Below, piece by piece: positions 1,382 to 62,784 of a stretch of DNA of 64,000 bases (its first letter is position 1; every line of letters starts with the position of its first letter). The position numbers and the translations under genes were made by a program. This stretch comes from Clostridia bacterium (lineage in GTDB: Bacteria > Bacillota > Clostridia > Oscillospirales > Acutalibacteraceae), in assembly GCA_017403185.1 (NCBI GenBank), contig JAFQON010000006.1:17006-81005 (forward strand), read 5' to 3'. The notes below the pieces were generated by a model. That model made no database searches, was not told the origin of the DNA, and worked only from the letters and a program-made list of their open reading frames with translations.

Positions 1382-1408
1382 TTCAATCACCATTCCTTTC
1401 ATTTTTCG

Positions 1409-1437
1409 ATTATACAATATTTGCATGAATTAATCAA
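1409..1437 (-). promoter_or_regulatory. Sigma-A-type promoter for the zinc-finger-like gene
   Basis: On the minus strand TTGATT is followed by a 17-base spacer and a perfect TATAAT. The predicted transcript starts near 1402, which excludes the upstream ATG codons and places the ribosome binding site AAAGGA at the 5' end of the message. Confidence 0.8.
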
Positions 1438-1445
1438 TAACTTTT

Positions 1446-2888: not shown

Positions 2889-2925
2889 TATTATTACCTC
2901 CTTCGGTAGAGTGAAGTGATTCACT

Positions 2926-4206
2926 TTAATCACAATATACCACATCAGGCTGATTCAGTAAAGTAATTTTTTCCATTTTTAATATTTTCAAATCCGAACA
3001 ATCAATATACGCCGTGAATTTTTCATCCTTCTGTGATAAAACAGCAAAGCAGCAGAGCTTTTCTCTGCCTTCAAGCTCCGCCAAGCAGACAAAAGCTTTT
3101 TCAACCGTCAGGTCTGCCGAAAATAACCCGTTCACATCGGGAGTAACGGCAGAAGCACGAATGTCGTCACGGTAATTTTTTATATATTCCGCTGCATCAA
3201 AAAAGGTTATTTTTCCGCTTGAAAGGCAGACGGATACCGTAACGGGTGCCGTCAGCAGCACCACGCCGTTAACCTTGGGGACAAAGTGAAAATCCGCCGT
3301 AAACTCATTCATACCGCAGCCGAGAAGCTCACCTGCAGCAAAGCCCTGATTTTTGACAAAATCCTCTGCCTTCATCAGAGCATCCCGTGCCGAATAAACG
3401 GTCTCGCCGCAGGGCTGAGGGTTCACAAGCCTGCAAAGCAAACCGCCCGATTTGCATATTTCGACCTCGGTATCACCGTGAAAAAGCGAATAAAGCTCAA
3501 AGCCGCTCTTCTGCCCGCTCTCCCGTGTGCGCCACAGAGCCTCACCGATTCCCGCAAATTCAGCCGCCTTTTTCTTAGCATATTCAAGCGGCACCGTTTC
3601 CCTGCCCTGCAAAACGGCACAGTGTCCGTATGAGGCAGATGCCGAAGCTGCCTGAGCAAAAATTTCGCCCTCTTTTCCGTTTGAATAATCGAGGTAATCC
3701 TCAAAATACGGCTTGTTTTGAGCCGAATATACGCTGCCGTGCTCCGAGAGCGAATATTTGCCGCCCATCACCGCTGACGAAAGGTCACTGAGATGATAAT
3801 AAAGCTCCTCAGCGTAGTCCGAATACTCCGATGCGGCATTGCGTGCTTCATCGCTCCCCGAAAAGCTTTGCGACAAATCATAGGCAGCGTTCAGAAAGCG
3901 GTTCAGATTCATCGTTTTCTTGCCGTCAAAGCACGCCGCACTGCCGATTGCCGCCGCAGAGCGTGCACCCACATAGCTTGCGCTGTCCGCAACCGCATCT
4001 CCCTGAGAAACGGAAAGCAGGCTGAGCCCGCCGCTGAGCTCATGCGTATATTCGCAAAGGGAATTAAGTGCCTCAAAACGCACTTTTTCAAGAGTTTTTT
4101 CGTAAGATTCCTTTGCCATGCCTGAAAATCCGCCCGCAACCGCCGCCGCAAGGCAGAGGGTGAGCAGATACGATACCGTTCTTATGAATTTCCGCCTTTT
4201 AACCAT
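2926..4206 (-). CDS. ypeB: Spore germination protein YpeB
   Basis: The 426-residue protein has one N-terminal membrane anchor (about residues 9-28), the YpeB-type N-terminal domain (NLNRFLNAAYDLSQSF, YAEELYYHLSDLSS), and PepSY-like repeats toward the C-terminus (ARDALMKAEDFVKNQG ... VNGVVLLTAPVTVSV). In Bacillus, YpeB protects and localises the cortex-lytic enzyme SleB in the dormant spore. Here no full sleB lies beside it, although a degenerate SleB-like protein is encoded at 27717-28280. The ribosome binding site AGGGTGA lies inside the 3' arm of a hairpin (4213-4248), and the gene seems to have its own promoter at 4255-4282. Confidence 0.9.
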   Translation of the reverse strand: MVKRRKFIRTVSYLLTLCLAAAVAGGFSGMAKESYEKTLEKVRFEALNSLCEYTHELSGGLSLLSVSQGDAVADSASYVGARSAAAIGSAACFDGKKTMNLNRFLNAAYDLSQSFSGSDEARNAASEYSDYAEELYYHLSDLSSAVMGGKYSLSEHGSVYSAQNKPYFEDYLDYSNGKEGEIFAQAASASASYGHCAVLQGRETVPLEYAKKKAAEFAGIGEALWRTRESGQKSGFELYSLFHGDTEVEICKSGGLLCRLVNPQPCGETVYSARDALMKAEDFVKNQGFAAGELLGCGMNEFTADFHFVPKVNGVVLLTAPVTVSVCLSSGKITFFDAAEYIKNYRDDIRASAVTPDVNGLFSADLTVEKAFVCLAELEGREKLCCFAVLSQKDEKFTAYIDCSDLKILKMEKITLLNQPDVVYCD

Positions 4207-4212
4207 GAAAAA

Positions 4213-4248
4213 ATCACCCTGCTTCCACTATAAAGTGTGCAGGGTGAT
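4213..4248 (-). terminator. Terminator-like hairpin that also holds the ypeB ribosome binding site
   Basis: A 10-bp perfect stem (ATCACCCTGC at 4213-4222, GCAGGGTGAT at 4239-4248) is followed on the minus strand by six T residues and then the ypeB ATG. It can end the gpmI transcript. The same 3' arm carries AGGGTGA, the only good ribosome binding site for ypeB. Confidence 0.8.
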
Positions 4249-4254
4249 GATAAT

Positions 4255-4282
4255 ATTATACAAGGGAAAATTTATTTAACAA
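4255..4282 (-). promoter_or_regulatory. Putative ypeB promoter inside the gpmI 3' end
   Basis: On the minus strand TTGTTA, a 16-base spacer and TATAAT overlap the gpmI stop region. The predicted transcription start (about 4248) coincides with the first base of the downstream hairpin. It looks like a vegetative promoter; no sigma-G-type element was seen. Confidence 0.6.
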
Positions 4283-5792
4283 GCAAGCTTTCGCCTGTCA
4301 TCTGTGCAGGCTGTTCAATACCCATAATGTCGAGCATTGTGGGTGCGATATCACAAAGCTTGCCGCCGTTTTCCTTAAGCTTGCAGTCATGACCGACTAC
4401 AACGAAGGGAACGGGATTTGTTGTGTGAGCGGTGAAGGGTGAGCCGTCGGGCTCATACATCTTATCTGCGTTGCCGTGGTCAGCGGTGATGAGCATTACG
4501 CCGCCCTTTGCCGAAACTGCATCGCAGATTTTACCGACACAGGTGTCAACAGCCTCAACAGCCGCAACAGCTGCATCGAAAACGCCTGTGTGACCAACCA
4601 TGTCGCAGTTAGCGTAGTTGAGGACAATCGCATCGTACATATCCGACTCAATCTTTTCAAGAAGAGTATCTGTAACGATGTATGCGCTCATTTCAGGCTG
4701 CAGGTCATAGGTTGCAACATTGGGAGAATCAATAAGAATTCTGTCCTCACCCTCATAAACGGTTTCTTCGCCGCCGTTGAGGAAGAAAGTAACATGAGCA
4801 TACTTTGTGTACTCTGCAATTCTGAGCTGCTTCATGCCCTGCTTGCTGAACACTTCACCAATGGGCATATCAATTCTCTGGGGCTTGTAAGCAACCTCAA
4901 CATTGGGCATTTCCGCCTCATACTGAGTCATGCAGACATAATAAAGGTCAAGCTTCTTTTCTCTCGCAAAGCCATCAAAATCGGGGTCAACAAAAGCTCT
5001 TGTGATTTCTCTTGCTCTGTCGGGACGGAAATTGAAGAATATAACACTGTCGCCGTCTTTAACAGCCTCAGCCTTTTCGCTTACACAGGGAACGATAAAT
5101 TCGTCTGTTACATCATTTTTGTATGATTCTTCAATCATTTCACAAGCGCAGGTGAACTTAGGACCTTTAAGCTTGGTCATTGCAACATAGGTCTTTTCAA
5201 CACGGTCAAACTTTCTTTCTCTGTCCATTGCATAGTAGCGGCCTTCAACGGTAGCAATTTCGCCAACACCGATTTCAGCACACTTTTTGTAAAGCTCTGC
5301 AAGGAAATCCTTGCCTGATGTGGGAGATACATCCCTGCCATCCATAAGGCAGTGAATGAACACTTTTTCTACACCGCTGCGCTTTGCAAGCTCAAGAAGT
5401 CCGTAAAGATGAGTGTTGTGGCTGTGAACGCCGCCGTCTGAAAGCAGACCCATAAGGTGGAGTGCGGAATTATTCTTTTTGCAGTTTTCCATAGCGCCCA
5501 CAAGAGCTTCGTTCTCAAAAAAATCGCCGTCATTGATTGACTTTGTGATTCTTGTAAGCTCCTGATAAACAACTCTGCCTGCGCCGATATTGGTGTGACC
5601 TACCTCGCTGTTACCCATCTGACCGTCGGGCAGACCAACATCCATGCCCGATGCGCCGATATATGTCATGGGATTTTCTGCCATTATTTTATCAAGGTTA
5701 GGTGTCTTTGCAGCAACAATTGCGTTACCGTAGTCGCTGTCGTTTCTGCCAAAGCCGTCCATAATACAAAGAAGAACGGGTTTTTTGCTCAT
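4272..5792 (-). CDS. gpmI: 2,3-bisphosphoglycerate-independent phosphoglycerate mutase
   Basis: This cytoplasmic glycolytic enzyme interconverts 3- and 2-phosphoglycerate. The N-terminal metal motif LLCIMDGFG, the catalytic-serine motif GQMGNSEVGHTNIG (serine near residue 62), HCLMDGRD and the C-terminal TADHGNADKM are all present. The length of 506 residues fits the family. The start at 5792 (MSKKPVLL) is preceded by AAAGGATTGAG. It is the last gene of a pgk-tpiA-gpmI block on the minus strand, separated from tpiA by a hairpin that may reduce read-through. Confidence 0.97.
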   Translation of the reverse strand: MSKKPVLLCIMDGFGRNDSDYGNAIVAAKTPNLDKIMAENPMTYIGASGMDVGLPDGQMGNSEVGHTNIGAGRVVYQELTRITKSINDGDFFENEALVGAMENCKKNNSALHLMGLLSDGGVHSHNTHLYGLLELAKRSGVEKVFIHCLMDGRDVSPTSGKDFLAELYKKCAEIGVGEIATVEGRYYAMDRERKFDRVEKTYVAMTKLKGPKFTCACEMIEESYKNDVTDEFIVPCVSEKAEAVKDGDSVIFFNFRPDRAREITRAFVDPDFDGFAREKKLDLYYVCMTQYEAEMPNVEVAYKPQRIDMPIGEVFSKQGMKQLRIAEYTKYAHVTFFLNGGEETVYEGEDRILIDSPNVATYDLQPEMSAYIVTDTLLEKIESDMYDAIVLNYANCDMVGHTGVFDAAVAAVEAVDTCVGKICDAVSAKGGVMLITADHGNADKMYEPDGSPFTAHTTNPVPFVVVGHDCKLKENGGKLCDIAPTMLDIMGIEQPAQMTGESLLVK

Positions 5793-5808
5793 TTTGCTCA
5801 ATCCTTTC

Positions 5809-5838
5809 AAAAATATAGGGGTCGAAGCCGACCCCTAT
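5809..5838 (-). terminator. Hairpin terminator between tpiA and gpmI
   Basis: A perfect 10-bp stem (ATAGGGGTCG at 5815-5824, CGACCCCTAT at 5829-5838) with a four-base loop is followed on the minus strand by ATTTTTG. The gpmI ribosome binding site follows at once, so this may be a partial terminator. Confidence 0.75.
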
Positions 5839-5847
5839 GGAACATTT

Positions 5848-6615
5848 TTATTTTGAAGCTGCCGCAACAATTGCCGCAAACTTCTCTGCAACGAGTGATG
5901 CGCCGCCGATAAGACCGCCGTCAACATCATACTGAGCAAGAAGCTCTGCTGCGTTTGCATCGTTCATTGAGCCGCCGTACTGAATAACAAACTTGTCAGC
6001 TGCATCCTTTGTGTAAAGTTCTGCAATAAGAGCGCGGATAACAGCGCAAACTTCGTTTGCCTGCTCGGGAGTAGCGGTAAGACCTGTGCCGATAGCCCAC
6101 ACGGGCTCATAAGCAATGATGATATTTGCAAGCTCAGCCTCCGATACGCCTGAAAGAGCAACCTTTGTCTGCATTCTTACAACCTCTGCTGTGATGCCGA
6201 GCTCCCTCTCCTTGAGAACTTCGCCAACGCAAAGGATAACCTTAAGACCTGCGTTAAGAGCTGCTCTTACTCTGTCACGGACTGTTTCGTCTGTTTCGCC
6301 GAAATACTGACGGCGCTCTGAGTGGCCGATGATAACATAGGGAACACCTGCAGCCTTGAGCATTTCTGCCGAAACCTCGCCTGTGAATGCGCCTTTTTCT
6401 GCCCAGTGGCAGTTTTCGGCACCGATTTTGATGTTTGAGCCTGCTGCAGCTTCCATTGCTGCGTAAAGGTCGATATAGGGAGCGCAGATAACAACATCAC
6501 AGTCTGCATCTGCAACAAGAGGCTTCATAGCTTCAATGAGAGCCTTTGTCTGCTCGGGATTGTTGTTCATTTTCCAGTTACCTGCAATAACAGGTCTGCG
6601 GAGTGATTTATCCAT
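5848..6615 (-). CDS. tpiA: Triosephosphate isomerase
   Basis: This TIM-barrel enzyme interconverts dihydroxyacetone phosphate and glyceraldehyde-3-phosphate. The sequence shows AGNWKMN at the N-terminus, the catalytic histidine in IIGHSERR, the catalytic glutamate motif YEPVWAIGTG, and the phosphate-binding loop GGSMNDANA. The length of 255 residues is usual. GGAAGGAATTG upstream of ATG supports the start. It lies between pgk and gpmI on the same strand. Confidence 0.97.
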   Translation of the reverse strand: MDKSLRRPVIAGNWKMNNNPEQTKALIEAMKPLVADADCDVVICAPYIDLYAAMEAAAGSNIKIGAENCHWAEKGAFTGEVSAEMLKAAGVPYVIIGHSERRQYFGETDETVRDRVRAALNAGLKVILCVGEVLKERELGITAEVVRMQTKVALSGVSEAELANIIIAYEPVWAIGTGLTATPEQANEVCAVIRALIAELYTKDAADKFVIQYGGSMNDANAAELLAQYDVDGGLIGGASLVAEKFAAIVAAASK

Positions 6616-6634
6616 TGTATTTCAATTCCTTCCG

Positions 6635-6662
6635 ATTATATTTGTAGATTAACATTAGCAAA
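6635..6662 (-). promoter_or_regulatory. Possible tpiA promoter
   Basis: On the minus strand TTTGCT, a 16-base spacer and a perfect TATAAT lie just upstream of the tpiA ribosome binding site. The -10 element is strong and the -35 weak, so this is tentative. Confidence 0.4.
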
Positions 6663-6702
6663 ATTTTATCACAAATGATAACGGGATTTTTGATGAGATT
6701 TG

Positions 6703-6751
6703 GCTTTCGCAGTGAGCGTAGCGTATCAGGATACGTGAGCGAACGAGAAAG
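6703..6751. repeat. Imperfect palindromic repeat between pgk and tpiA
   Basis: A nested inverted repeat has an inner CGTATC-AG-GATACG hairpin and outer arms CTTTC...GAAAG with imperfect GTGAGCG-type pairing between. No U-run follows on either strand, so it is not a simple terminator. It resembles other small palindromic elements in this window. Confidence 0.6.
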
Positions 6752-6767
6752 TCAAAGGTCGCAAAAA

Positions 6768-7979
6768 TTACTTATCATTTACTGCTTCGATGCCGGGAAG
6801 GGCCTTACCCTCAAGGAATTCGAGTGAAGCGCCGCCGCCTGTTGAGATGTGAGTCATCTTGTCGCCGAAGCCGAGGGTGTTAACTGCAGCTGCTGAGTCG
6901 CCGCCGCCGATGATTGTAACTGCATCTGTTTCTGCAAGAGCCTTTGCAACTGAAATTGTGCCCGCTGCAAGAGTGGGGTTCTCAAAAACACCCATGGGTC
7001 CGTTCCAAACAACGGTCTTTGCGCTCTTAACTGCATCTGCATAGAGCTCTGCGGTCTTGGGTCCGATATCAAGGCCTTCAACATCTGCAGGGATAGCATC
7101 TGCTGCGTAAACTGCTGTGTCAATGGGAGCATCAATGGGGTTGGGGAAGCCTGCTGCTGTAACAACATCAACGGGAAGAAGAATCTTAACGCCCTTTGCT
7201 TCAGCCTTTGCAAGCATATCCTTGCAGTAGTCAATCTTGCTTTCATCAAGGAGTGAGTTGCCTACGCCGTAGCCCTTAGCTGCAAGGAAGGTGTAAGCCA
7301 TACCGCCGCCGATGATGAGTGTGTCTGCTTTATTGAGAAGGTTTTCGATAACATTGAGCTTATCTGCAACCTTAGCGCCGCCGAGGATTGTAACGAAGGG
7401 TCTTTCGGGGTCTTCAACAGCATTGCCGAGATACTTGAGCTCCTTGCCCATAAGATAACCTACAGCTGCTTCTTCAACATAAGCTGTTACGCCTACTGTT
7501 GAGCAGTGTGCTCTGTGAGCTGCACCGAAGGCATCGTTTACATACATTTCGCAAAGGCTTGCAAGGTCCTTTGAGAATGCTTCGCCGTTCTTTGTTTCTT
7601 CTGCACGGAAACGGGTGTTCTCAAGAAGAACAACATCGCCGTCGTTCATAGCTGCAACTGCTGCCTTTGCGTTTTCGCCTACAACTGTGTCGTCAGCTGC
7701 AAAAACAACTTCCTTGCCGAGCTTTTCGCTGAGTCTCTTTGCAACGGGAGCAAGCGAGAACTTTGCTTCGGGGCCGTTCTTGGGCTTGCCGAGATGTGAG
7801 CAAAGGATAACCTTTGCGCCGTCATTTATAAGCTTCTGAATTGTGGGAAGAGCAGCGTTGATTCTGTTTTCGTCTGTGATAACGCCTTCCTTGAGAGGCA
7901 CATTGAAATCGCAGCGAACAAGCACCTTCTTGCCCTTTGCATTAATGTCGTCAACTGTTTTTTTGTTAAGTAAGCTCAT
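6768..7979 (-). CDS. pgk: Phosphoglycerate kinase
   Basis: This enzyme transfers the 1-phosphate of 1,3-bisphosphoglycerate to ADP, giving ATP. The family signatures are all visible: [13 protein letters not shown] near the N-terminus, [24 protein letters not shown], the nucleotide-binding [10 protein letters not shown], and the C-terminal GGGDSAAAV and [13 protein letters not shown]. Length 403 residues. The start at 7979 (MSLLNKKT) has CGAAAGGATTG upstream; the longer frame to 8024 lacks a ribosome binding site. It is the first gene of the glycolytic block. Confidence 0.97.
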
Positions 7980-8115
7980 TTTTTTCAATCCTTTCGAAAT
8001 TTTTGTTGGAACATACTTTACCAATTATTTATTTTATAATATTATGTCAAATATTTCAAGTATTATTTATCGGCAAAACGCCGAATATAATGCGGTTTTA
8101 ACGCTAATTTTCATC

Positions 8116-8144
8116 TTGACTTTACAACAGATTTTTGGTAGAAT
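8116..8144 (+). promoter_or_regulatory. Promoter of tRNA-Arg
   Basis: TTGACT, a 17-base spacer and TAGAAT lie 27 bases upstream of the mature tRNA 5' end, as expected for a stable-RNA promoter. Confidence 0.75.
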
Positions 8145-8171
8145 GTGTGAGTTGAACAAAACTTGATATTT

Positions 8172-8246
8172 GCCTCCTTAGTTAAATGGATATAACAGGC
8201 CCCTCCTAAGGGTCAGTTGTGAGTTCGATTCTCGCAGGGGGTGCCA
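8172..8246 (+). tRNA. tRNA-Arg (anticodon CCT)
   Basis: The 75-base gene folds as a full cloverleaf. The acceptor stem pairs GCCTCCT with AGGGGGT, the anticodon stem pairs GGCCC with GGGTC around the loop CTCCTAA (anticodon CCT, reads AGG), and the T arm contains GTTCGATT. CCA is encoded. A consensus promoter and a terminator flank it, so it is a single-gene unit. Confidence 0.95.
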
Positions 8247-8248
8247 CG

Positions 8249-8275
8249 CTCCGATGTTTTTTCATCGGAGTTTTT
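8249..8275 (+). terminator. Terminator of tRNA-Arg
   Basis: CTCCGATG (8249-8256) pairs perfectly with CATCGGAG (8263-8270), and TTTTTG follows. Confidence 0.93.
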
Positions 8276-8345
8276 GTTAATGGATATAAGAACCTGATGC
8301 TGTCGCATCAGAACCTTGTTGCTCGCTCGTTTGGGCGGAACAGAA
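8276..8345 (+). repeat. Palindromic repeat with a tRNA-Arg D-arm fragment
   Basis: GTTAATGGATATAA at 8276-8289 is a near copy of the tRNA-Arg D-arm at 8181-8195. It is followed by a hairpin CTGATGC-TGTC-GCATCAG (8294-8311) and a TTGTTGCTCGCTCG segment. The segment after the hairpin resembles one inside the interrupted tRNA-Asn region near 63535-63590. Confidence 0.6.
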
Positions 8346-8414
8346 GGTGTTATTGGTAAACTGAAGAAGTTTTGCGGATACAAGCTTGAAGGCTGTTTGA
8401 AAGGATGATATAAA

Positions 8415-10304
8415 TTGAAGCTCAGAGCACCCTCAATCCCACTTATAACCGTTGACCCTTATTTTTCGGTATGGTCGCCCGCCGATGAAATCAATCACAG
8501 CATAACCGAGCATTGGAGCGGCAAGGGCAATTCAATCATCGGAACGGTTGAAATCGACGGTGAAAAGCTGCTTTTTCTCGGCTATCACAGAGATATCAGG
8601 AAGATAAAGCAGGTTGCGCTCGATATTGATGCACTTTCAACAACGGCGGTTTTTGAAAACGATAAAATCACACTTACAGCAAAATTTCTCACGCCCCTTA
8701 TCCCCGACGATTACCGTCTTCTCACCCGCCCCGTTTCATATCTCGAAATAAGCTGGGCTTCAAAAGACGGCGCATCGCACAATGTGAGCGTTAACATTGC
8801 CGCAAGCGAAGGGCTCTGCCTTGACGAGCCCAACAGCATCGAGGTTATCACCGAAAAAGTCAAAGCCGGCAGCCTCACCGCAATGAAAATGGGGAATCCC
8901 ACCCAGAATCCCCTCAACAGAAGCGGCGATCTGATAAAAATTGACTGGGGTTATATGTATCTTGCCTGCAACAGCCCCGAAGCTGAAAGCTTTGACAGCG
9001 AAATATGGGGAGATAAGCATATCAACATCACCGCTCCGCTCGGTGAAGGGGCTCCCATTCTGTATCTCTTTGCATATGACGATATCGAGAGCATCGAATA
9101 TTTCGGCAGGCATCTGCGTTCATACTGGAACAAAGACGGTCAGACAATAATCGAAGCTATCGCAGAAGCCGCCGAAGAATACACAGAGCTTGAGGTACGT
9201 TGCAATGAATTTTCCAAAAAGCTTTATGACGATGCGTTTGCCGCAGGCGGCGAAGAGTATGCAGAGCTGCTTTCGCTCGCTTACCGTCAGGTTATCGCAG
9301 CCCATAAGCTTGTGCTTGATGAAAACGGAGAAATCCTGTTCATCTCAAAGGAATGCAATTCAAACGGCTGTGCGGCAACCGTCGATGTGTCTTATCCGTC
9401 AACTCCGATGTTCCTTATTTATAACCCCGAGCTTGTCAAGGGCATGATGCGACCCGTTTATAAATTTGCTCTCAGCGATGCGTGGGATTTTGACTTTGCA
9501 CCGCACGATGTGGGTCAGTATCCCCTGCTTAACGGTCAGGTTTACGCCAACAACCAAAAGGATATTCTCAAATGGCAAATGCCCGTTGAGGAATGCGGAA
9601 ATATGCTGATTACGGAGGCAAATGTCGCTCTTGCCACAGGCTCGGCAGACTTTGCAAACGAGCATATTGACCTTCTTGAAAAGTGGAGCAGATATCTTAT
9701 TGAATACGGTGCAGACCCCGGCCATCAGCTCTGCACAGACGATTTTGCGGGCCATCTTGCCCATAACTGCAATCTCTCGCTCAAGGCAATCATGGGTCTG
9801 CAGGGAATGTCAACAATTCAGAATATGCTCGGCGATAAGGAGAAATCCGCATATTACCGCTCTGAGGCCGAGAAAATGACGGCAATCTGGATGAAAACCG
9901 CAGTCAACACCGACGGCACAACAAGGCTTGCGTTCGACCGACCCGACACATACTCGATGAAATATAATATGGTATGGGATAAGGTGTGGGGCAGCGGCCT
10001 TTTCACTCAGGAATTCATGGATGCAGAAATCGCCGATAACACGAAGCATTTCAACAAATACGGTATGCCGCTTGACAGCAGAGCGGATTACACAAAATCC
10101 GACTGGCTTGTGTGGACAGCCTCAATGGCATCATCGGACAAGGTCTTTGCCGATTACATCTCACCTCTTTGGAAGGCTTATAACGAAAGCCCGTCAAGAG
10201 TGCCGCTGAGCGATTGGTATGACACGGTGAGCGGTCAATGGGTTTCGTTCCGCCACAGAACGGTTCAGGGCGGTCTGTTTATAAGAATGCTGATGAAAAA
10301 ATAA
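8415..10304 (+). CDS. Glutaminase A-like protein (DUF4965/DUF5127/DUF1793 architecture)
   Basis: The 629-residue protein starts PSIPLITVDPYFSVWS, typical of the N-terminal domain of fungal GtaA-like glutaminases and their bacterial relatives. The middle and C-terminal parts have the family blocks NGCAATVDVSYPSTPMFL, DFAPHDVGQYP, ADPGHQLCTDDFAGHLAHNCNLSLKAI and the (alpha/alpha)6-like C-terminus ending in VSFRHRTVQGGLFIRML. No signal peptide is visible, so it is probably cytoplasmic here. The activity is inferred from family and has not been shown for most bacterial members. The start is TTG at 8415 with AAAGGATGA about ten bases upstream. It stands alone, ending in a strong terminator. Confidence 0.8.
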   Translation: MKLRAPSIPLITVDPYFSVWSPADEINHSITEHWSGKGNSIIGTVEIDGEKLLFLGYHRDIRKIKQVALDIDALSTTAVFENDKITLTAKFLTPLIPDDYRLLTRPVSYLEISWASKDGASHNVSVNIAASEGLCLDEPNSIEVITEKVKAGSLTAMKMGNPTQNPLNRSGDLIKIDWGYMYLACNSPEAESFDSEIWGDKHINITAPLGEGAPILYLFAYDDIESIEYFGRHLRSYWNKDGQTIIEAIAEAAEEYTELEVRCNEFSKKLYDDAFAAGGEEYAELLSLAYRQVIAAHKLVLDENGEILFISKECNSNGCAATVDVSYPSTPMFLIYNPELVKGMMRPVYKFALSDAWDFDFAPHDVGQYPLLNGQVYANNQKDILKWQMPVEECGNMLITEANVALATGSADFANEHIDLLEKWSRYLIEYGADPGHQLCTDDFAGHLAHNCNLSLKAIMGLQGMSTIQNMLGDKEKSAYYRSEAEKMTAIWMKTAVNTDGTTRLAFDRPDTYSMKYNMVWDKVWGSGLFTQEFMDAEIADNTKHFNKYGMPLDSRADYTKSDWLVWTASMASSDKVFADYISPLWKAYNESPSRVPLSDWYDTVSGQWVSFRHRTVQGGLFIRMLMKK

Positions 10305-10315
10305 AATAATTTTTT

Positions 10316-10349
10316 AAGCTGCACGGGAACAAAACCGTGCAGCTTTTTT
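10316..10349 (+). terminator. Terminator after the glutaminase-like gene
   Basis: AAGCTGCACGG (10316-10326) pairs perfectly with CCGTGCAGCTT (10335-10345), and T residues continue to 10349. Confidence 0.93.
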
Positions 10350-10434
10350 GCGTTTTCTTTGATTTTCGTGAACCGATGTGCTCCGCTTTGTATCTTATTA
10401 TTATGATAACTTTTCAAGAAAGGAGGCTCGGTAT

Positions 10435-10899
10435 ATGAACTTAGGTAATGAAATCTTACGGGATTCCTGCCCGCAAAAATACACGGAGCAAGGCAATCTC
10501 TTCAAAGAAACTCTTCCTGTTATATTAATGCTTGTTCTTGTGTCGCTGTGGTCAGGCAGCCTGTTCCGTGGCGGAGGCATAAGCGGAATTGCAACGCTTG
10601 TTATCGAAATAATTTTTGTGTTTGGTATGTATGCTTTTGTATTCTTTGTCTTTAAAGGGTCAAAAAAACGCCTTGCCGAAACTTATATAAGCATATGCGA
10701 AAACGGAGTTTGCGGTGTGTGCCCTCTCAACGGCTTCAAAAACAGAGATTTTTGCGTTTATTACGGCAGCATCACCAATGTAAAGGCAAAAAAAGACCAG
10801 CTTTTCATTTACTCCGCAGGCAGCAAAACCGCCGTATTCACGCTTCACAACGCCTCTGCCGCAGCAGCATTGATTCAAAGCAGACTCAACAACAAATAA
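10435..10899 (+). CDS. Small membrane protein of unknown function
   Basis: The 154-residue product has two predicted membrane helices (about residues 26-41 and 48-70). A soluble C-terminal region with alternating strand-like segments (CVYYGSITNVKAKKDQLFIYSAG) resembles a bacterial PH-like domain. The start at 10435 is fixed by AAGAAAGGAGG upstream; the frame is open further 5' to 10378 without a binding site. It lies 10 bases upstream of the next membrane protein gene and is probably co-transcribed with it. No family was recognised with certainty. Confidence 0.65.
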   Translation: MNLGNEILRDSCPQKYTEQGNLFKETLPVILMLVLVSLWSGSLFRGGGISGIATLVIEIIFVFGMYAFVFFVFKGSKKRLAETYISICENGVCGVCPLNGFKNRDFCVYYGSITNVKAKKDQLFIYSAGSKTAVFTLHNASAAAALIQSRLNNK

Positions 10900-49370: not shown

Positions 49371-50912
49371 CTATAAACAGAACATGAATCTGTGCAATAA
49401 AAAAACAAATCCGAACGAATCACCGTAAAGTGAAAAGTTCGGATTTGTATCGTTTGGCGCCCGAAAGCATTCCAAATCCGAACCGTTAAGTTCATTGAAA
49501 TTAACGGTTGTTTTGACGTCGCTGTAATTGTAGGTAATCACAAGCTTATCGTCATACAGGAACACAGCATTTACAAAAGTATCAATCAACTTTTTGCGGT
49601 GTTCTATATTATCAACATTCAGCATTCTGAATTTCAGAAGCCAGAATCGTATGAATTCTGCGTCAGGTCTCGGTTTTGCTATTTTTTCATTGGCAATCCT
49701 GATTTGAAGTTCCTCTTGCTGTTTTTCAAGTTCTTCCAGTCTTGCCTTCGTTGATTTTGTCAAAATCCCCTGTTGTATTGCATTCAGCAAATTTTTAATT
49801 GCTGTCTCGGTTTCGATTAACTGCTTTTCATAGAGCGGAAGCTCCGTGTTTTCTTTTTCTTGCAAGTGAGTGACAAGAGTGATAATATCTTCTATTCTCT
49901 CGTCGCTTTCTATCATCTGCTTGGTCTGCATAACAACCAAATCTTCAATCCATTGTTTGCGAACGGATTTCTTTTTACATTCCCCTGTCTTATTCTTAAC
50001 TGATACACATTTGTAATATCTGTGTGTAACCTGTTTTCTGCCCGTACCGCTTTCGCCGCACATAAACCGTCCGCAATATCCGCAATAAAGCTTTGTTGTC
50101 AAAAGATAATCTTCCCTTGCCTTTTTCCTTGCGGGTGCTTTCTTGTTTAGTGCTATCCGTGCCTGAACACGGTCAAACAAATCCTGCGGTACAATTGCCG
50201 GTATTGCATTCGGAATAACCGTATCTTTGAAATGTTCTTCGCCGATATACCGTCGGTTTTTCAGCATATGTTCAATATTGTTGTAGCTGATTGGGTTACC
50301 CCTTGTGTTCTTTACATTCTTTGAATTCAGATAATCTCTGATTTCTTTCATCGTCATTCCGCTGTCATACATCTTGAATGTTTCCAAAACATACGGTGCG
50401 TTCAGAGTATCTGCTTGCATATGCTGTTCACTGTCAACAACATAACCGAATGTAACATTTCCGCCGTTAAACTTGTTCTTAAGAACATTTTCTGTCATAC
50501 CTCGGATTACTTTTTCGGAAAGATCCGCCGAATAATATTCCGCATATCCTTCAAGCACAGATTCAAGTATGATACCCTCTGCACCATCTGAAATAACCTC
50601 GGTTGCTGAAACAACCTTTACTCCGTTTTTCTTCAGAATTGATTTGTACCTTGCACTGTCATATCTGTTTCTTGCAAATCTGTCGAGTTTCCAGACAAGC
50701 ACAACATCGAAAAGCTTTTTACCGCTGTCCTTAATCATATTCTGAAATTCAGGTCGGTTGTCTGTCTTTGCCGAATACGCTCTGTCGATGTAACATCTCA
50801 ACACCGTCATTCCGTTTTTCTCCGCAAATTCAGTACATTCACGAATCTGACCTTCAATGGATTCTTCTCGTTGATTGTCACAGGAGTATCTAGCATAGAT
50901 TACGGCTTTCAA
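49371..50912 (-). CDS. Large serine recombinase (integrase)
   Basis: The N-terminal resolvase domain starts KAVIYARYSCDNQREESIEGQI, with the catalytic serine at residue 10, and includes VLVWKLDRFARNRYD. A Recombinase domain (NKFNGGNVTFGYVVD ... GMTMKEIRDYLNSKNVKNTRG), a zinc-ribbon (LYCGYCGRFMCGESG ... YYKCVSVKNKTGECKKK) and a coiled coil (LYEKQLIETETAIKNLL) follow. It would integrate and excise the surrounding element. TTG start overlaps the stop of the XRE gene by four bases, with GGAGGTGA upstream. The last 30 or so codons read through a terminator hairpin and the att-like repeat. Confidence 0.94.
   Translation of the reverse strand: MKAVIYARYSCDNQREESIEGQIRECTEFAEKNGMTVLRCYIDRAYSAKTDNRPEFQNMIKDSGKKLFDVVLVWKLDRFARNRYDSARYKSILKKNGVKVVSATEVISDGAEGIILESVLEGYAEYYSADLSEKVIRGMTENVLKNKFNGGNVTFGYVVDSEQHMQADTLNAPYVLETFKMYDSGMTMKEIRDYLNSKNVKNTRGNPISYNNIEHMLKNRRYIGEEHFKDTVIPNAIPAIVPQDLFDRVQARIALNKKAPARKKAREDYLLTTKLYCGYCGRFMCGESGTGRKQVTHRYYKCVSVKNKTGECKKKSVRKQWIEDLVVMQTKQMIESDERIEDIITLVTHLQEKENTELPLYEKQLIETETAIKNLLNAIQQGILTKSTKARLEELEKQQEELQIRIANEKIAKPRPDAEFIRFWLLKFRMLNVDNIEHRKKLIDTFVNAVFLYDDKLVITYNYSDVKTTVNFNELNGSDLECFRAPNDTNPNFSLYGDSFGFVFLLHRFMFCL
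49398..49448 (-). terminator. Terminator hairpin inside the recombinase 3' end
   Basis: ACAAATCCGAAC (49405-49416) pairs perfectly with GTTCGGATTTGT (49437-49448), followed on the minus strand by T residues. It closely resembles the tRNA-Asn terminator at 63367-63410. Confidence 0.8.
49437..49466. repeat. Putative left attachment-site repeat
   Basis: GTTCGGATT, seven bases, then TTTGGCGCCC and AAA after one base. The same blocks occur at identical spacing at 63399-63428, where they span the tRNA-Asn 3' end and its terminator arm. About 23 of 30 positions agree. Confidence 0.5.
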
Positions 50913-51398: not shown

Positions 51399-51578
51399 TT
51401 AGGCTGTATCTTTATCATTGGAATTTGCTTTTTGTTCCGCTTTCCACTTTTCAAATTCTTTCTGACCTTCTTCGCTTTCGTAGTATGCAATGATGTCGGG
51501 CAGAATACAGCGTGCTATATCTTCGATAACATGCTCAGGCAAATCCGATTTAAGTCTTATTTTCTTCGGGCGTGACAT
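51399..51578 (-). CDS. Small element-associated protein
   Basis: The 59-residue product (MSRPKKIRLKSDLPEHVIED ... EFEKWKAEQKANSNDKDTA) is charged and helical, with a basic N-terminus and no membrane segment. AAAGGAGAACT precedes ATG at 51578. It is found next to the XRE and recombinase genes on the same strand and might be an accessory factor, for example for recombination, but there is no direct evidence. Confidence 0.6.
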   Translation of the reverse strand: MSRPKKIRLKSDLPEHVIEDIARCILPDIIAYYESEEGQKEFEKWKAEQKANSNDKDTA

Positions 51579-51669
51579 AGTTCTCCTTTCCTTGTTAGTT
51601 GGATTTGCAGGATGTGTAAAACACATGTCTTATTTTCACTTTGTTACTTGATAAACACTCCTATCTAAC

Positions 51670-51723
51670 CAAAAAGACACCTATGACATTTGATGCCTGC
51701 ATCACAATGCTCGGCGGTGTCTT
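51670..51723 (-). terminator. Terminator of the first DUF2971 gene
   Basis: On the minus strand AAGACACC pairs with GGTGTCTT over a long loop that holds an inner GATGC-AG-GCATC hairpin. TTTGG follows. Confidence 0.65.
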
Positions 51724-51848
51724 AAGTGTCTTAATTTCTTTTTTCAAGTATATTATAGCGGATATAATTTTTTATGTCAAATTTTTTTGAATAATAATAC
51801 TAATAGCCTAATATTTTTGTTAAATAAAATTATTTATGCAACTACACA

Positions 51849-52847
51849 TCAAAAACGTATGGGAATTCTTGATTGGTATATTGGTACAGAACTATAACCT
51901 GAAGCTAACAAAAGCTCTTTAATACTTCTCTTAGCAATATCAAATTCTGTTATTGGAGATACAGTTATTCTTGATATCGCTTCTTTCGGAACAACAACAT
52001 TTAAATACGGTACAATCAAACCTCTTTTTACGCAAAAATCTTCATACATTTTTTTATTGTTGACGCCTAAATATTTTCTTGATTCATTTTCGCTATGTGC
52101 AATGCGTTCATCAGCAATACAAATCACTATTCTATACTCGTTTTCAGATTCAAATTTATTGCTCTTAAAAAACAAACCTTGTGCATCAATATAACTTCTC
52201 AACTTAAGAATTGCGTAGCTGAGAGCTTTGTCCCCCCAAATGTTTCTTTTATCCTCTATGGTATTAGCCAACTGTTCAATTTCAAACATCTGTTGTTTTT
52301 CTTTATATAACACTTTCCCGTGATATACTAAAAAAGCATCTACTGCATTTTCTTCTTCAATGCTAAATGTATTTAATAACTTTTCAATATTAAAACCAAT
52401 GTTATATCCTTCATAAAATCCATTATTAACATAATAGTTCCACATATTCAAAGAATCGCATTCACTGCACATACAAAACAAAAAATGTCGACTCGGTCTA
52501 TATGGTAATTTAGGAACTTCGTTAAAAGAAATCTCATTTAAGGATAAAGATTTTATTCCTTCAAAACTGTTTCCTTTCAAAAGCTCATTAACAGCTTCGT
52601 TAAAAAGCGGATATGTATTAGGGTGATCCTCTATGAATTCTACTAACACCTTAAGAAAATAAAGCGTCTCAGATTTATCGTTCATATATCTTGCATCTGT
52701 AAATCTAAGTGTTCTATTCTTTAATATTGATAAAAAAGCATTAGGCGAAGTATAATGATATAAATTTAACGATAATTTTTCATTACTTTTTTCTAAGCCA
52801 AATTCTTTTATCATAAAAGAAGAATTCTTTGATTTATAATTCATCAT
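51849..52847 (-). CDS. DUF2971 domain protein, shorter type
   Basis: The 332-residue protein shows the DUF2971 pattern: LYHYTS at 29-34, TLRFTDARYMNDKSE at 46-60, FCMCSECDSLNMWNYY at 124-139 and ESENEYRIVICI at 234-244. No membrane segment. Proteins of this family are common in mobile and defence-associated DNA, but their reaction is not established. The gene is AT-rich. The site before ATG is weak (GAGAAGATATG). It lies in the same orientation as a second, longer DUF2971 gene 357 bases upstream. Confidence 0.82.
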   Translation of the reverse strand: MMNYKSKNSSFMIKEFGLEKSNEKLSLNLYHYTSPNAFLSILKNRTLRFTDARYMNDKSETLYFLKVLVEFIEDHPNTYPLFNEAVNELLKGNSFEGIKSLSLNEISFNEVPKLPYRPSRHFLFCMCSECDSLNMWNYYVNNGFYEGYNIGFNIEKLLNTFSIEEENAVDAFLVYHGKVLYKEKQQMFEIEQLANTIEDKRNIWGDKALSYAILKLRSYIDAQGLFFKSNKFESENEYRIVICIADERIAHSENESRKYLGVNNKKMYEDFCVKRGLIVPYLNVVVPKEAISRITVSPITEFDIAKRSIKELLLASGYSSVPIYQSRIPIRF

Positions 52848-52933
52848 ATCTTCTCACTCTCCGTTTCTTCTAACAAAAGTACATCTTCAAAATATATACT
52901 TTACATATTTCAAATTAATTATATCACTAATTG

Positions 52934-52978
52934 GCAAGCAGGACAAGCGGATATCCGCTTGCATCAAAGACTGCTTGT
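52934..52978. repeat. Nested palindromes between the DUF2971 genes
   Basis: CAAGCGGAT-ATCCGCTTG (52944-52961) is a perfect 18-base palindrome inside GCAAGCAG (52934-52941) and CTGCTTGT (52971-52978). The intergenic stretch 52848-53204 also has GATTTTGC-TTTC-GCAAAACC and a terminator; it holds no gene. Confidence 0.65.
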
Positions 52979-53111
52979 GATTTTGTTCAGGAATTCTATC
53001 CGTTCACTTAATCAGCAAGCAGTGCAAGTGTACGTACATTTTGCAAAACGGCGATTTTGCTTTCGCAAAACCGCTGCTGCTTGTTGGTGAATTTCTTCCC
53101 CAAACCCCTAA

Positions 53112-53149
53112 CAAAAATCGGAGAGAAAATTTAAAAATCTTCTCTCCGA
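53112..53149 (-). terminator. Terminator of the second DUF2971 gene
   Basis: On the minus strand CGGAGAGAA pairs perfectly with TTCTCTCCG, followed by ATTTTTG. Confidence 0.82.
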
Positions 53150-53204
53150 GCAGCGTCCGTTGGGCTTGTATTACTAGGTTAAAATCAATTTTGTAGAAAA
53201 ATTT

Positions 53205-54863
53205 TTAATTGTCATCTAACTTTGATTCGCTTTCTAACGAAACCGTAATCATTTCTTCTCCGAACCATTTCAACTCGCAGTGTTTCTCTACCATTTCTAA
53301 AATATTAGATATAAATTTTTGTGCCGTATGGTATTCGTTTAAAGAAATTTTTTTGCAGAGCATTAAATCTGCAATGCTAGTTTTTATGGACTCTGAACTT
53401 TCCTTTGCTTTGAATATGAATTCATTTATCTGCAGAATTGCCGTTGTGGTTTGTGGTTCTTCCATAAATTCAGATAATTCTACATTCATATTTTTACAAT
53501 AACGATTAAAGGATGTTTTTAAAAAATATGCATCGCTCAAAAAATCCAATGTGGTAGATAACACATTCATCATCGAAGCAACTTCAAATTGTCCATTTTT
53601 CATAGCATCAATCGCCTTTTCTGAATTAGATGACATTTTTTCGACAAGAGACACTGTGTGTGCTGAAAGAAGATTTATGTACTCAATTTCTCTGCCCTCA
53701 TCAAACAAAAAAGACTCAGCAGTCATTTTCTCTCTTGATAAATTATAATCACATGGATTAATAACTAACTGGTAACAGTCAACATTGTTTTCTTGACATA
53801 CATCCCATATCAGCAATTTGCACATATCATCTAAGTTTAAACCTAATGTTATGGATTTAATAAATGGGACATTAATAAACATTGGTGTGTACGGTTGTTC
53901 ACAGGTATTGATAATTCGCCACTCTTTTTCATATTCCCAACACTTATTTTTTGCAAGAAGATATGATATAATAGCACTCATATTTGTTTCATCTGTTTTA
54001 AAAATGCCATTTTCATCTTTCTCTAATTTGCATATTCCTAAATCCTTAAGTGTTATTGTGGGGCGTTCATTTGAATATTCGACAGGATATACAAACCCAA
54101 TAAATTTATTCATTTTTTCAAAGTCATATTCAACACAGATACCCGAATAAGAATTTGCATAATGAGCCCACATAAGGTGATTATCCCATCCGCTTGCACT
54201 AAAACAGGATATTGTTAATTTAGATAAAAAATCTTTAAGAAACGGAAGATATATCTCGTCTCTGACCTCTACAACTTTTTCTTCTAACAACTTTAATGCA
54301 TCTTCGATATTTAAAATATCAATTATTGTTTTTTCTTCAATTTCTATACCTTTATAATCTTTTATGAGTACAGAAAAAATCAAGAAAGACTGCTTGTTGA
54401 AATAATTTTTAACATCTGGTGGACATTTTTTATATAGTCTATCTGCATTTCTCGCAACAAAAACAGATAGATTATTGGTTGGCACATGAGATATAGCGCT
54501 TTGTGTTAAAATATATTTTTTTAATTTGTTCAACGCAGCAATGAAACCAACACTCTTACCAATAATCTTAAATTTCAGAAAGCTTTTTAAAACTGTTTTG
54601 AGGCTTTCATCTAAATTAATGTCTGCTTGATTAAGAACTAAATCAATGCATTCATCATAAATTTTTTCTGTCGAAAATCCAATTATCGAGTCAAATGGAT
54701 CGTTCATTTGTAATGGAGTGCGAGCAAAAACAACCCCATGTCGAATATTTTCAATATCATATATAGTAGCAACATCTCTTCGACAAGCCCTATATTGATA
54801 AAATAAATTGCCTGATTTTTTTATTTCATCCTTCATTTTCAAAAATGATAATTCACGTTCCAT
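53205..54863 (-). CDS. DUF2971 domain protein with a long C-terminal extension
   Basis: The 552-residue protein starts with DUF2971-type blocks: FYQYRAC, RHGVVFARTPLQMNDPFDS (41-59), ISCFSASGWDNHLMWAHYANSYSGICVEYDF (218-248) and YEKEWRIINT (311-320). An inserted helical region fills 65-215, longer than in the neighbouring homologue. Residues from about 395 form a helical extension (VSLVEKMSSNSEKAIDAMKN ... FISNILEMVEKHCELKWFG) without recognised family. Soluble. GGAGATGTAATAT precedes ATG. The gene is strongly AT-rich. Function unknown; a defence or stress role is suggested only by context. Confidence 0.8.
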   Translation of the reverse strand: MERELSFLKMKDEIKKSGNLFYQYRACRRDVATIYDIENIRHGVVFARTPLQMNDPFDSIIGFSTEKIYDECIDLVLNQADINLDESLKTVLKSFLKFKIIGKSVGFIAALNKLKKYILTQSAISHVPTNNLSVFVARNADRLYKKCPPDVKNYFNKQSFLIFSVLIKDYKGIEIEEKTIIDILNIEDALKLLEEKVVEVRDEIYLPFLKDFLSKLTISCFSASGWDNHLMWAHYANSYSGICVEYDFEKMNKFIGFVYPVEYSNERPTITLKDLGICKLEKDENGIFKTDETNMSAIISYLLAKNKCWEYEKEWRIINTCEQPYTPMFINVPFIKSITLGLNLDDMCKLLIWDVCQENNVDCYQLVINPCDYNLSREKMTAESFLFDEGREIEYINLLSAHTVSLVEKMSSNSEKAIDAMKNGQFEVASMMNVLSTTLDFLSDAYFLKTSFNRYCKNMNVELSEFMEEPQTTTAILQINEFIFKAKESSESIKTSIADLMLCKKISLNEYHTAQKFISNILEMVEKHCELKWFGEEMITVSLESESKLDDN

Positions 54864-55056
54864 ATATTACATCTCCATTTACCAATTATTATATAAAGAA
54901 AAGTGTTCGCACAAATGTTCGCTTTTATTATAGGCTTATTTTAGTTTTATGTCAAGAATTAATTAATTTAGAATAACCGTATTCCTTAAAATGACCTCTG
55001 AAAATCTTCTAACACTTCAAGGTTTATTAATAATATCTAATAGGAATAGCGTAGCA

Positions 55057-60440: not shown

Positions 60441-60464
60441 AATCCCCCATTCAAATGGGGGATT
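60441..60464 (+). terminator. Terminator of the ABC operon
   Basis: AATCCCCCAT pairs perfectly with ATGGGGGATT around TCAA, followed by CTTC. The rest of 60465-60748 is AT-rich with no gene; it holds the next promoter. Confidence 0.82.
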
Positions 60465-60687: not shown

Positions 60688-60721
60688 TTGATTGAAAACC
60701 ATATATATAATATGATATAAT
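60688..60721 (+). promoter_or_regulatory. Promoter of the SIR2-SLOG-TIR gene
   Basis: Two overlapping options are visible: TTGATT, 17 bases, TATGAT (60688-60716), or TTGAAA, 18 bases, TATAAT (60692-60721). The ribosome binding site AGGAGA follows. Confidence 0.65.
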
Positions 60722-60748
60722 TATTACAGTTTTTTTAGGAGAATTTTT

Positions 60749-62674
60749 ATGAACATAGAAATAAGTAAACAAGAATATATTAACAATCTTGATAAAATAG
60801 TAAGTGAAATCGAAAAGGGAAATCTGTCCGTATTCATTGGTGCAGGAGTATCTACAGCATCTGGATATGTTGATTGGAATGGACTAATGAAACCTATCAT
60901 TGAGCAATTAGGGGTCAATCCTAATATTGATTTATCCCTTGCCGCACAGTTTTATGAAAACAAATATTATAGACACAATATAAGCAAGTTAATTTATGAA
61001 GAATTTAATAAGCCCGCAAAAGCGAATAGTGTATTAAAATTACTTGGTTCAATGCCCATTTCTTCCTATTGGACAACTAACTATGATTCTTTAATTGAAG
61101 ATACATTGTCTAATGCACCAGTTTCAAAAACGGTTGAAGTTATTCTTAAAAAAGAAGATTTTAAATTTCATAAAAACAATTGTGAAGCAACCGTATACAA
61201 AATGCATGGAGACAAGGATTCTCCTGATGAAGCCATAATCACAAAAAACGACTATGAAGTTTATGATATGAAACGCGAAGTTTTTACTAAGGCACTTTCA
61301 GTTGAGTTGATAACAAATACCTTTCTGTTTATCGGATTTAGTTTCTCAGATCCAAATCTTGAAAGGATATTGAATGTTGTTAAACACACCTTTGACGAAA
61401 AACATCAAAAGATACATTATTGCTTTATGCGTAAAGTTCAAAAGGATGATTATGATAATTTAGAAAAATACGGACAAGATATTAATTATCAATCATTAAG
61501 AGTTGAAGAAATGCGTAGATGCGGCATTGAAACTATTTTACTAGATGAGTTTTCTCAAATTGATTTGTGTCTATCTTATATTAAATCAATGCTAAATCAT
61601 AAACGTATTTTTATATCTGGCAGTTTGCAATTACACCAAAAAGATCCTAAGGAGATTACAAAGGATTCTAAACAAGCTGTTTTTATCCAGCATCTTGCGG
61701 AATATCTAACAAACAGAGGCTATAAGCTAGTTTCAGGGTTTGGTCAAAATATAGGCAATTATTTATTAATTGGTTCATGTAATAACAGAATGATTTCTGA
61801 AATAAGGAATTTACACAACTTGATAGAGATATATCCTCTTATTACACAAAATGATGATGCAAGTGTTTTGCGCAAAGAACTAATTTCTAATTGCGGTAAT
61901 ATGATAACAATTTTCGGAAAAACAAAGCAAAATCAATGCACGGATACAGAGCTTAAAGAAGATGGAGTTAACATTGAATATGAATTTGCAAAAGAATATG
62001 GATTAACGGTTTTGCCTATCGGTTGTACTGGTAATACTTCAAAAATACTATGGGATAAAGAGAATAAGGATAGTTTCTATTCTAATTCTGAAGTTGAAAA
62101 ATCATGGAACAACTTAGAACATCTTAGTTATGCTAATGACGAGAACTTAATTCTTAATTCGCTCGTTAGCCTGATGGAATATAGTTATATTGAAAAACAA
62201 AACAAATTAAAAAGACAACTGACCAAAGAATTGCAGATTGGTAGCAGTAACGTGAAAAAGATATTTCTAAGTTTCCATTATAATTCTGCACACCTTTATG
62301 CAGATAGAATTAGAAAATATATAAATGAAATGGAAGAATTCATTGCAACTGAAGAAGAAAAAGTTCACAAAAATGCGAGTTCTGAAATCATTATAAATTG
62401 GATAAAAGAAAAAATGAATGATTCCGTTGCAACTATTCTTATTTATGATGATAATACATTTAACAGCAAATATGTTAACTACGAAATAGAGCAGTCTATA
62501 GAAAGGCATAACAAAATAATAGTTCTTTCTTTAGATAAGGATTTGGAAAAAGCAAAACAAAATATCAAAAGCAAAAAATTAATAGATTATGAGAACTGGA
62601 AAGTTTATGATTTCAACAAAATTTCTTCATGTTCAGATATGATTAAAATTCTAAAGGATAGTATTAATAATTAA
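60749..62674 (+). CDS. Single-chain Thoeris-like defence protein (SIR2 - SLOG - ThsB-like TIR)
   Basis: Residues 1-280 form a SIR2 NADase: FIGAGVSTASG (29-39), Asn111 in SSYWTTNYDSLIED, His153 in YKMHGDKD and FIGFSFSDPNLERIL. Asn111 and His153 match the positions of the catalytic pair in ThsA. Residues 284-480 form a SLOG/STALD domain (RIFISGSLQ, YKLVSGFGQNIGNYLLIGS, MITIFGKT, NIEYEFAKEYGLTVLPIG). Residues 500-610 match the DUF1863/ThsB TIR fold (VKKIFLSFHYNSAHLY, ATILIYDDNTFNSKYVNYEIEQSI), with Glu579 as likely catalytic acid. In Thoeris, a TIR enzyme makes a cyclic ADP-ribose signal that binds SLOG and turns on NAD+ loss. Here all three are fused. Own promoter and terminator. Confidence 0.88.
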   Translation: MNIEISKQEYINNLDKIVSEIEKGNLSVFIGAGVSTASGYVDWNGLMKPIIEQLGVNPNIDLSLAAQFYENKYYRHNISKLIYEEFNKPAKANSVLKLLGSMPISSYWTTNYDSLIEDTLSNAPVSKTVEVILKKEDFKFHKNNCEATVYKMHGDKDSPDEAIITKNDYEVYDMKREVFTKALSVELITNTFLFIGFSFSDPNLERILNVVKHTFDEKHQKIHYCFMRKVQKDDYDNLEKYGQDINYQSLRVEEMRRCGIETILLDEFSQIDLCLSYIKSMLNHKRIFISGSLQLHQKDPKEITKDSKQAVFIQHLAEYLTNRGYKLVSGFGQNIGNYLLIGSCNNRMISEIRNLHNLIEIYPLITQNDDASVLRKELISNCGNMITIFGKTKQNQCTDTELKEDGVNIEYEFAKEYGLTVLPIGCTGNTSKILWDKENKDSFYSNSEVEKSWNNLEHLSYANDENLILNSLVSLMEYSYIEKQNKLKRQLTKELQIGSSNVKKIFLSFHYNSAHLYADRIRKYINEMEEFIATEEEKVHKNASSEIIINWIKEKMNDSVATILIYDDNTFNSKYVNYEIEQSIERHNKIIVLSLDKDLEKAKQNIKSKKLIDYENWKVYDFNKISSCSDMIKILKDSINN

Positions 62675-62739
62675 ACTCTATAAACTTAGATAAAATACAA
62701 ATTTATTCATGTATTGTTTTGTTAAAACTCAATAATATA

Positions 62740-62784
62740 ACAGCCATACAAGCTGAATATCAAGTCAACTTGTATGGCTGTTTT
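62740..62784 (+). terminator. Terminator of the SIR2-SLOG-TIR gene
   Basis: ACAGCCATACAAG (62740-62752) pairs perfectly with CTTGTATGGCTGT (62769-62781), followed by TTT. Confidence 0.9.

Follow-up and report, generated by a model that had tools for sequence, protein, structure and literature searches.

In the window, the 64,000-nucleotide stretch of a Clostridia bacterium genome that was analysed, a single gene is predicted to unite both protein components of a Thoeris defence system. Profile and structure-sequence comparisons confirm that one chain carries a whole ThsA-type SIR2-SLOG part (residues 14-475), a short linker and a ThsB-type TIR part (residues 503-623). Two distant relatives of the same layout suggest that the fusion is a real, inherited design, and, read most simply, the sequences describe a Thoeris system in one protein whose receptor has been remodelled. 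The proposal favoured here, with a probability of roughly 0.6, is a single-protein Thoeris-type phage-defence factor born by fusion of thsA and thsB, in which the TIR domain would signal through a remodelled SLOG domain to the SIR2 domain.

The gene is a single open frame of 641 codons that runs from ATG to TAA without an internal stop; at 29.4% G+C, the chance probability of an open run of this length is about 4e-24. The gene and its parts are located as follows.

60749..62674, plus strand: fused ThsA-ThsB-like gene encoding 641 aa, with a monocistronic layout
60749..61564, plus strand: SIR2 NADase domain, residues 1-272, from profile and structure-sequence matches
61079..61081, plus strand: Asn111 codon (BcThsA Asn112), by alignment
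61205..61207, plus strand: His153 codon (BcThsA His152), by alignment
61565..62173, plus strand: SLOG (STALD) receptor domain, residues 273-475, with Ser290, Arg375 and Glu410 kept and the equivalents of Phe357 and Lys388 lost
62174..62251, plus strand: linker, residues 476-501, alignable across three fusions
62252..62671, plus strand: ThsB-type TIR domain, residues 502-641, with Phe506 and Glu579
62483..62485, plus strand: Glu579 codon (ThsB Glu85 column), by alignment

Three Pfam families match the protein above their curated cut-offs, namely SIR2_2 at residues 106-242 (E 1.9e-25), the STALD SLOG family PF18185 at residues 273-474 (E 3.2e-34) and ThsB_TIR at residues 506-597 (E 8.8e-12). The PADLOC model of ThsA spans residues 14-475 (2.1e-122), and that of ThsB spans residues 503-623 (9.8e-16). 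In sequence searches, the solved ThsA structures 8wc0, 7uxt, 6lhx and 8bto match inside residues 4-472 (E 2e-71 to 6e-68), and the solved ThsB structures 9b7d and 6lhy match residues 502-610, with values of 2e-7 to 3e-7 when the TIR part alone is the query; from the sequence profiles, we infer a TIR fold for the C-terminal part. The earlier note had read the protein as an N-terminal SIR2 domain with Asn111 and His153 at the positions of the ThsA catalytic pair, a central SLOG domain and a C-terminal ThsB-type TIR domain with Glu579 in its usual place, and all three assignments are borne out by the agreement of Pfam, PADLOC and the alignments with ThsA structures and with ThsB. Its claim of a whole Thoeris pathway in one protein stands as anatomy, that is, in domain order, domain types and catalytic residues; as a working pathway, it is the proposal weighed below.

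The catalytic residues of both enzymatic domains are in place. Asn111 and His153 align with Asn112 and His152 of Bacillus cereus ThsA, given in part of PMC7272460 as the catalytic pair of its SIR2 domain, and the two columns hold Asn and His, respectively, in 94/94 unfused rows. Glu579 aligns with the catalytic Glu of ThsB, which is Glu85 according to a section of PMC10022894, and Phe506, absent from the earlier note, aligns with the Phe of the TIR Phe/Glu pair. The Phe opposite the catalytic Glu is described in part of PMC12578639 as required for cyclase activity in a staphylococcal system. In an alignment of the window protein's TIR domain with seven TIR proteins, only the Phe506 and Glu579 columns were invariant; the pair is likewise kept among the unfused rows (Phe in 91/92, Glu in 92/92) and in all three fusions. 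Other conserved TIR columns are lost, namely an Arg column at 517 in every fusion and an Arg column at 522 in L015 and L118.

The search for other fusions of the same order, proposed in the earlier note, yielded two. One, a fused frame of 671 aa from an uncultured Lachnospiraceae MAG (L015), came from a ThsA-alignment pattern scan of one genome per species in 84,980 species, in which it was the one single frame with ThsA and TIR among the best 80 of at least 422 relatives. The other, of 650 aa on a 2.52-Mb contig (L118), came from a sample of 397 genomes from the family of the L015 genome. From 154 loci, 114 distinct frames with at least three-quarters of the SIR2-SLOG profile were obtained, two of which were cut copies of the window gene; fusions thus make up 3 of the remaining 112 frames, which were distinguished by exact sequence and include some near-copies. 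No further fusion occurred among the matches listed for 99 relatives, for the window's order (394), class (391) and phylum (398), for 5 genomes of the L118 genus or for 295 of the L015 order. Records with matches numbered 5 and 9 in two phage searches, and in none did coverage exceed 80% of the query. Two plasmid searches gave 359 and 245 records, of which 10 and 15 exceeded that coverage, and no fusion was seen among the 10 and 12 listed; the listed plasmid matches carry two annotated genes, the exceptions being Zymomonas H8/H53, truncated by the start of the record, and Rhizobium H56, which has two hypothetical proteins. Three scans of viral contigs found no relative, and another found 13 loci, none of them fused. 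Since the collections were sampled or reduced to the best matches, more fusions may exist.

These relatives also bear on the possibility that the window gene is a non-functional fusion, either decaying or created by assembly. The draft genome that contains it is fragmented (80.3% complete, 50 contigs), and the window protein sits on a long branch in both trees described below, which would fit such an origin. On the other hand, the frame and its ribosome binding site are intact and the catalytic residues are kept, and the two further intact fusions, one of them on a megabase-scale contig, largely refute this explanation and led to the rejection of an assembly or frameshift artefact, so that it is considered very improbable.

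The genomic settings of the three copies differ. L015 lies downstream of the RADAR pair, an RdrA-like gene and then an RdrB-like gene, and upstream of a small TIR_2 gene; in this locus (3944-5959, with L148 at 5764-10884), the fused gene begins 52 bp past the RdrB-like gene, an arrangement that makes it look like an extra member of a RADAR operon. L118 comes after genes for a DNA methylase and a HATPase, the latter with a weak REase_II match. Both neighbourhoods look like defence settings. That of the window copy is less clear: an ABC-transporter operon and tRNA genes lie nearby in place of a defence island, with a tRNA-Asn gene 0.7 kb downstream. The following sites flank the window gene.

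60441..60464, plus strand: terminator-like hairpin at the boundary between the upstream ABC operon and the fused gene, by site prediction
60692..60721, plus strand: promoter-like site TTGAAA-18-TATAAT with TG, 11/12 matches, by site prediction
60737..60742, plus strand: ribosome binding site AGGAGA, 6 nt upstream of the ATG, by eye
62739..62782, strand unassigned: 18-pair terminator-like hairpin downstream of the gene, scored on the minus strand, with a shorter T run on the plus strand

Across the region, promoter-like matches stand at chance level (22 found vs 17.8 expected) and terminator-like sites number 5 vs 0.9 expected. The G+C content of the fused gene is 0.29, compared with 0.33-0.41 for segments between 55000 and 60500, which fits an acquired gene; another low-G+C stretch (0.29-0.33) lies at about 51500-54999. 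About 6-11 kb upstream of the fused gene, with a LytTR regulator and ABC-transporter genes intervening, are a serine recombinase gene and two DUF2971 genes. The two DUF2971 genes (51849-54863) are low in G+C and match the PADLOC candidate defence family PDC-S31, and the serine recombinase gene (49371-50912) is close to both; this segment may be an acquired defence segment. No separate thsB-like gene adjoining the fused gene was found in the neighbourhood. Elsewhere in the window genome, two ThsB_TIR and five TIR_2 matches exceed the cut-off, with two places shared between them and all on other contigs; five other TIR-domain frames of this draft genome lie on contigs C9, C14, C17, C24 and C31.

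The SIR2-SLOG part bears on the origin of the fusion. L015 and L118 are 35-38% identical to the window protein in alignments that run along the whole length; for L015, the 617 aligned columns (35% identity) include the linker, and the three linkers share the pattern (E/K)-K-x-x-x-L-(R/K)-x-(K/Q)-(L/M). In a careful tree of 41 chosen SIR2-SLOG parts, the three fusions form one clade (100/100), the sister of which (99/97) is the two-gene ThsA of Paraliobacillus sp. PM-2 (L020). A quick tree of 96 rows, built without L118, also groups the window protein with L015. The single clade points to probably one old fusion, and independent fusions are not favoured for this part. The TIR tree is poorly resolved and alone cannot decide this matter: with long branches, the free tree beats the one-clade tree by 6.06 log units (p-AU 0.379), which neither shows nor rejects a single fused clade. 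In Paraliobacillus, the ATG of thsB overlaps the stop codon of thsA by 1 nt. Where a thsB-like frame lies downstream on the same strand, with its start picked by script and some loci being near-copies, the gap is at most 20 bp in 68/76 loci and the frame is that of thsA in 35/76; the loci outside these 76 have a TIR gene upstream or none found in the stretch examined. A fusion would thus need very little, and the SIR2-SLOG tree suggests that it arose from adjacent thsA and thsB, probably in an ancestor within the Bacillota.

This near-contact also permits a plainer explanation, in which the protein is type I Thoeris in one chain: the usual 1''-3' gcADPR would be released and bound by the SLOG domain of any copy, and the fusion, a neutral accident between two nearly touching genes, would have no functional consequence. 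The domains and catalytic residues are indeed identical in kind to those of the two-gene system. Against this, the fusion persists across proteins as divergent as those aligned here, and the receptor pocket of the fused clade is altered, so that this explanation is regarded as distinctly unlikely.

A separate TIR protein made from an internal start was considered as well, and it is not a common feature of the three fusions. In the window gene, no ribosome site was seen upstream of the ATG at residue 476. In L118, AGGGAG stands shortly upstream of an in-frame ATG at codon 500, at the end of the linker; the corresponding codon of L015 is CTG, and the window gene has neither feature. The L118 motif could be a relic of an old thsB ribosome site or an internal start yielding free TIR. 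Two further observations concern the relatives. Locus L014 encodes a 651-aa protein (1312-3267, minus strand) that weakly matches STALD SLOG towards its C-terminus; a TIR-like stretch was read by eye ahead of this match, and a small ThsB-like gene (704-1309, minus strand) adjoins the protein's gene. The locus may represent a further exchange of components within this circuit. L040 and L041, from MAGs labelled Tissierellaceae and Syntrophomonas, have identical ThsA frames, which may reflect recent transfer or a binning matter.

The fusions also depart from their unfused relatives in the receptor domain. The three fusions were compared with 94 unfused rows, a conserved column being one kept in at least 90% of the latter. 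Of 23 such SLOG columns, the window protein keeps 16 and L015 and L118 keep 15 each, the three lowest values of the 97 rows, the lowest unfused row keeping 19. Five SLOG columns are lost in all three fusions: the Leu before the RPFP motif, the Phe and second Pro of RPFP, and the Asn-Lys of the GNK motif. By alignment, the RPFP Phe corresponds to BcThsA Phe357 and the GNK Lys to Lys388, the window protein having Leu364 and Thr392 at these positions, and unfused rows keep the Phe in 93/94 and the Lys in 88/94. In contrast, Ser290, Arg375 and Glu410 (BcThsA Ser288, Arg371 and Glu403) are kept in all three fusions. Part of PMC7272460 lists Phe357 among the ligand-site residues of the STALD family, and sections of PMC10022894 state that Lys388, Arg371 and Glu403 coordinate 3'cADPR, the same molecule as 1''-3' gcADPR, that ThsA of B. 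cereus gained activity in a plant assay when Arg371, Glu403 or Lys388 was mutated, and that the same mutations rendered the Enterococcus faecium protein insensitive to 3'cADPR. Given these mutant effects, a missing Lys388 could alter not only the ligand but also the basal state.

In the SIR2 domain, the window protein, L015 and L118 keep 50, 50 and 48 of 61 conserved columns, and two unfused rows keep fewer. An excess of SLOG over SIR2 loss is not significant for any single protein (Fisher p 0.24, 0.14 and 0.26), the columns lost in all three fusions being 7/61 in SIR2 vs 5/23 in SLOG; what stands is only that the SLOG losses fall in two pocket elements and that the three fusions rank lowest of 97 rows. 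Since the fusions form one clade, the pocket loss counts as one event. Three candidate marks do not single out the fusions: the unfused L060 also lacks both the Phe and the Lys by identity (Leu and Arg there); a W-to-Y change before the catalytic Glu also occurs in the unfused L051, L053 and L035; and the loop from RPFP to the conserved Arg is nearly as short in the unfused L058 (nine rows). Because two otherwise well-kept ligand-site elements are lost in all three fusions, it cannot be assumed that the same signal is read in the same way, and cyclic ADP-ribose binding could be gone.

That possibility underlies the main rival explanation. Here, the TIR domain would no longer signal and would serve as a sensor, an oligomerising handle or a second NADase, the SLOG domain would couple it to SIR2, and direct contact with a phage part would activate the protein without a messenger, as in DSR2 or SpbK. 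The near-universal presence of the two lost elements in unfused proteins speaks for this explanation, and the joining of the domains could make a diffusible messenger unnecessary. The retention of the Ser, Arg and Glu of the pocket in every fusion points the other way, as does that of the TIR Phe/Glu pair, a catalytic pair not being expected in a mere handle, and the explanation is held to be rather unlikely.

In the favoured Thoeris-type reading, infection would switch on the TIR domain, which would convert NAD+ to a product of the cyclic ADP-ribose type. This product could act on the SLOG domain of its own chain or of neighbouring chains in an oligomer, and engagement of SLOG would open the SIR2 site, so that NAD+ is destroyed and the infected cell stops. 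This reading is supported by the intact SIR2 and TIR catalytic pairs, the three ligand-site residues kept in SLOG, the single clade of fused proteins and the defence-like settings of L015 and L118; the conserved columns lost from all three domains, the neighbourhood of the window copy and the poorly resolved TIR tree weigh against it. In the two-gene system, according to part of PMC12948488, ThsB makes 1''-3' gcADPR, and binding by SLOG leads to filament assembly and turns on the SIR2 NADase. In the fused protein, the attached SLOG domain would receive the product of the attached TIR domain, perhaps in cis. Since maker and receiver would travel together, the pocket may have been free to change, with loss of the Phe357 and Lys388 elements, and this change implies that the fusions probably differ from two-gene type I Thoeris in the signal or in the way it is handed over. 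A more tentative variant, to which only a low probability is given, is a closed-circuit Thoeris in which the TIR product, perhaps a different NAD-derived molecule, would be handed unreleased to a SLOG domain of the same oligomer and would escape the phage proteins Tad1 and Tad2, described in part of PMC12948488 as absorbing free messengers of the cyclic ADP-ribose type.

If the favoured proposal is true, a single gene encodes a messenger-based immune pathway, the maker, the receiver and the killer all lying in one polypeptide. One construct could then serve to test whether Thoeris signalling can do without a free messenger, and whether phage proteins that absorb messengers are powerless against a fused circuit. 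With its altered pocket, the fused clade would be a natural experiment on what SLOG reads. Annotation rules that expect two genes could miss such systems.

The earlier note knew of no described system with exactly this domain order, and none was found in the open-licence PMC literature, as far as its accessible parts go; no description of a ThsA-ThsB fusion is given in parts of PMC11204291, PMC9503650, PMC7272460, PMC10022894, PMC12578639, PMC12948488, PMC10973363, PMC10952713, PMC11249213, PMC8565338 and PMC12700824. The architecture could be listed in the 2015 survey by Burroughs. That survey reportedly named the STALD family. The closest known system is type I Thoeris, with which the fused protein shares complete domains of both proteins, the SIR2 Asn/His and TIR Phe/Glu pairs, and a STALD SLOG domain with equivalents of Ser288, Arg371 and Glu403. 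In contrast, type I Thoeris consists of two or more genes and the fused protein of one frame, and the fused SLOG domain lacks the Phe357 and Lys388 elements; owing to these differences in gene layout and in two pocket residues, the protein is classed as a fused variant of type I Thoeris rather than among its standard members. Paraliobacillus sp. PM-2 has the nearest unfused ThsA in the tree, but as one of two genes and with the standard RPFP and GNK motifs in SLOG. The likeness to DSR2 and other SIR2 defence proteins lies in the SIR2 domain (Dsr2 models): the NCBIfam Dsr2 model scores 44.4 bits against a cut-off of 1400 and covers residues 14-204 only, rather than the whole length. STING-TIR, SAVED-TIR and the CARF-TIR protein Cat1, as portrayed in parts of the literature, likewise join a messenger receptor and a TIR domain in one chain. 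In these proteins, however, the TIR domain does the killing and a separate protein supplies the messenger, whereas the fused protein holds both a SIR2 killer and a ThsB-type TIR domain. What is new here is the SLOG pocket: every one of the three fusions has lost the Phe357 and Lys388 elements and retained the Ser, Arg and Glu residues.
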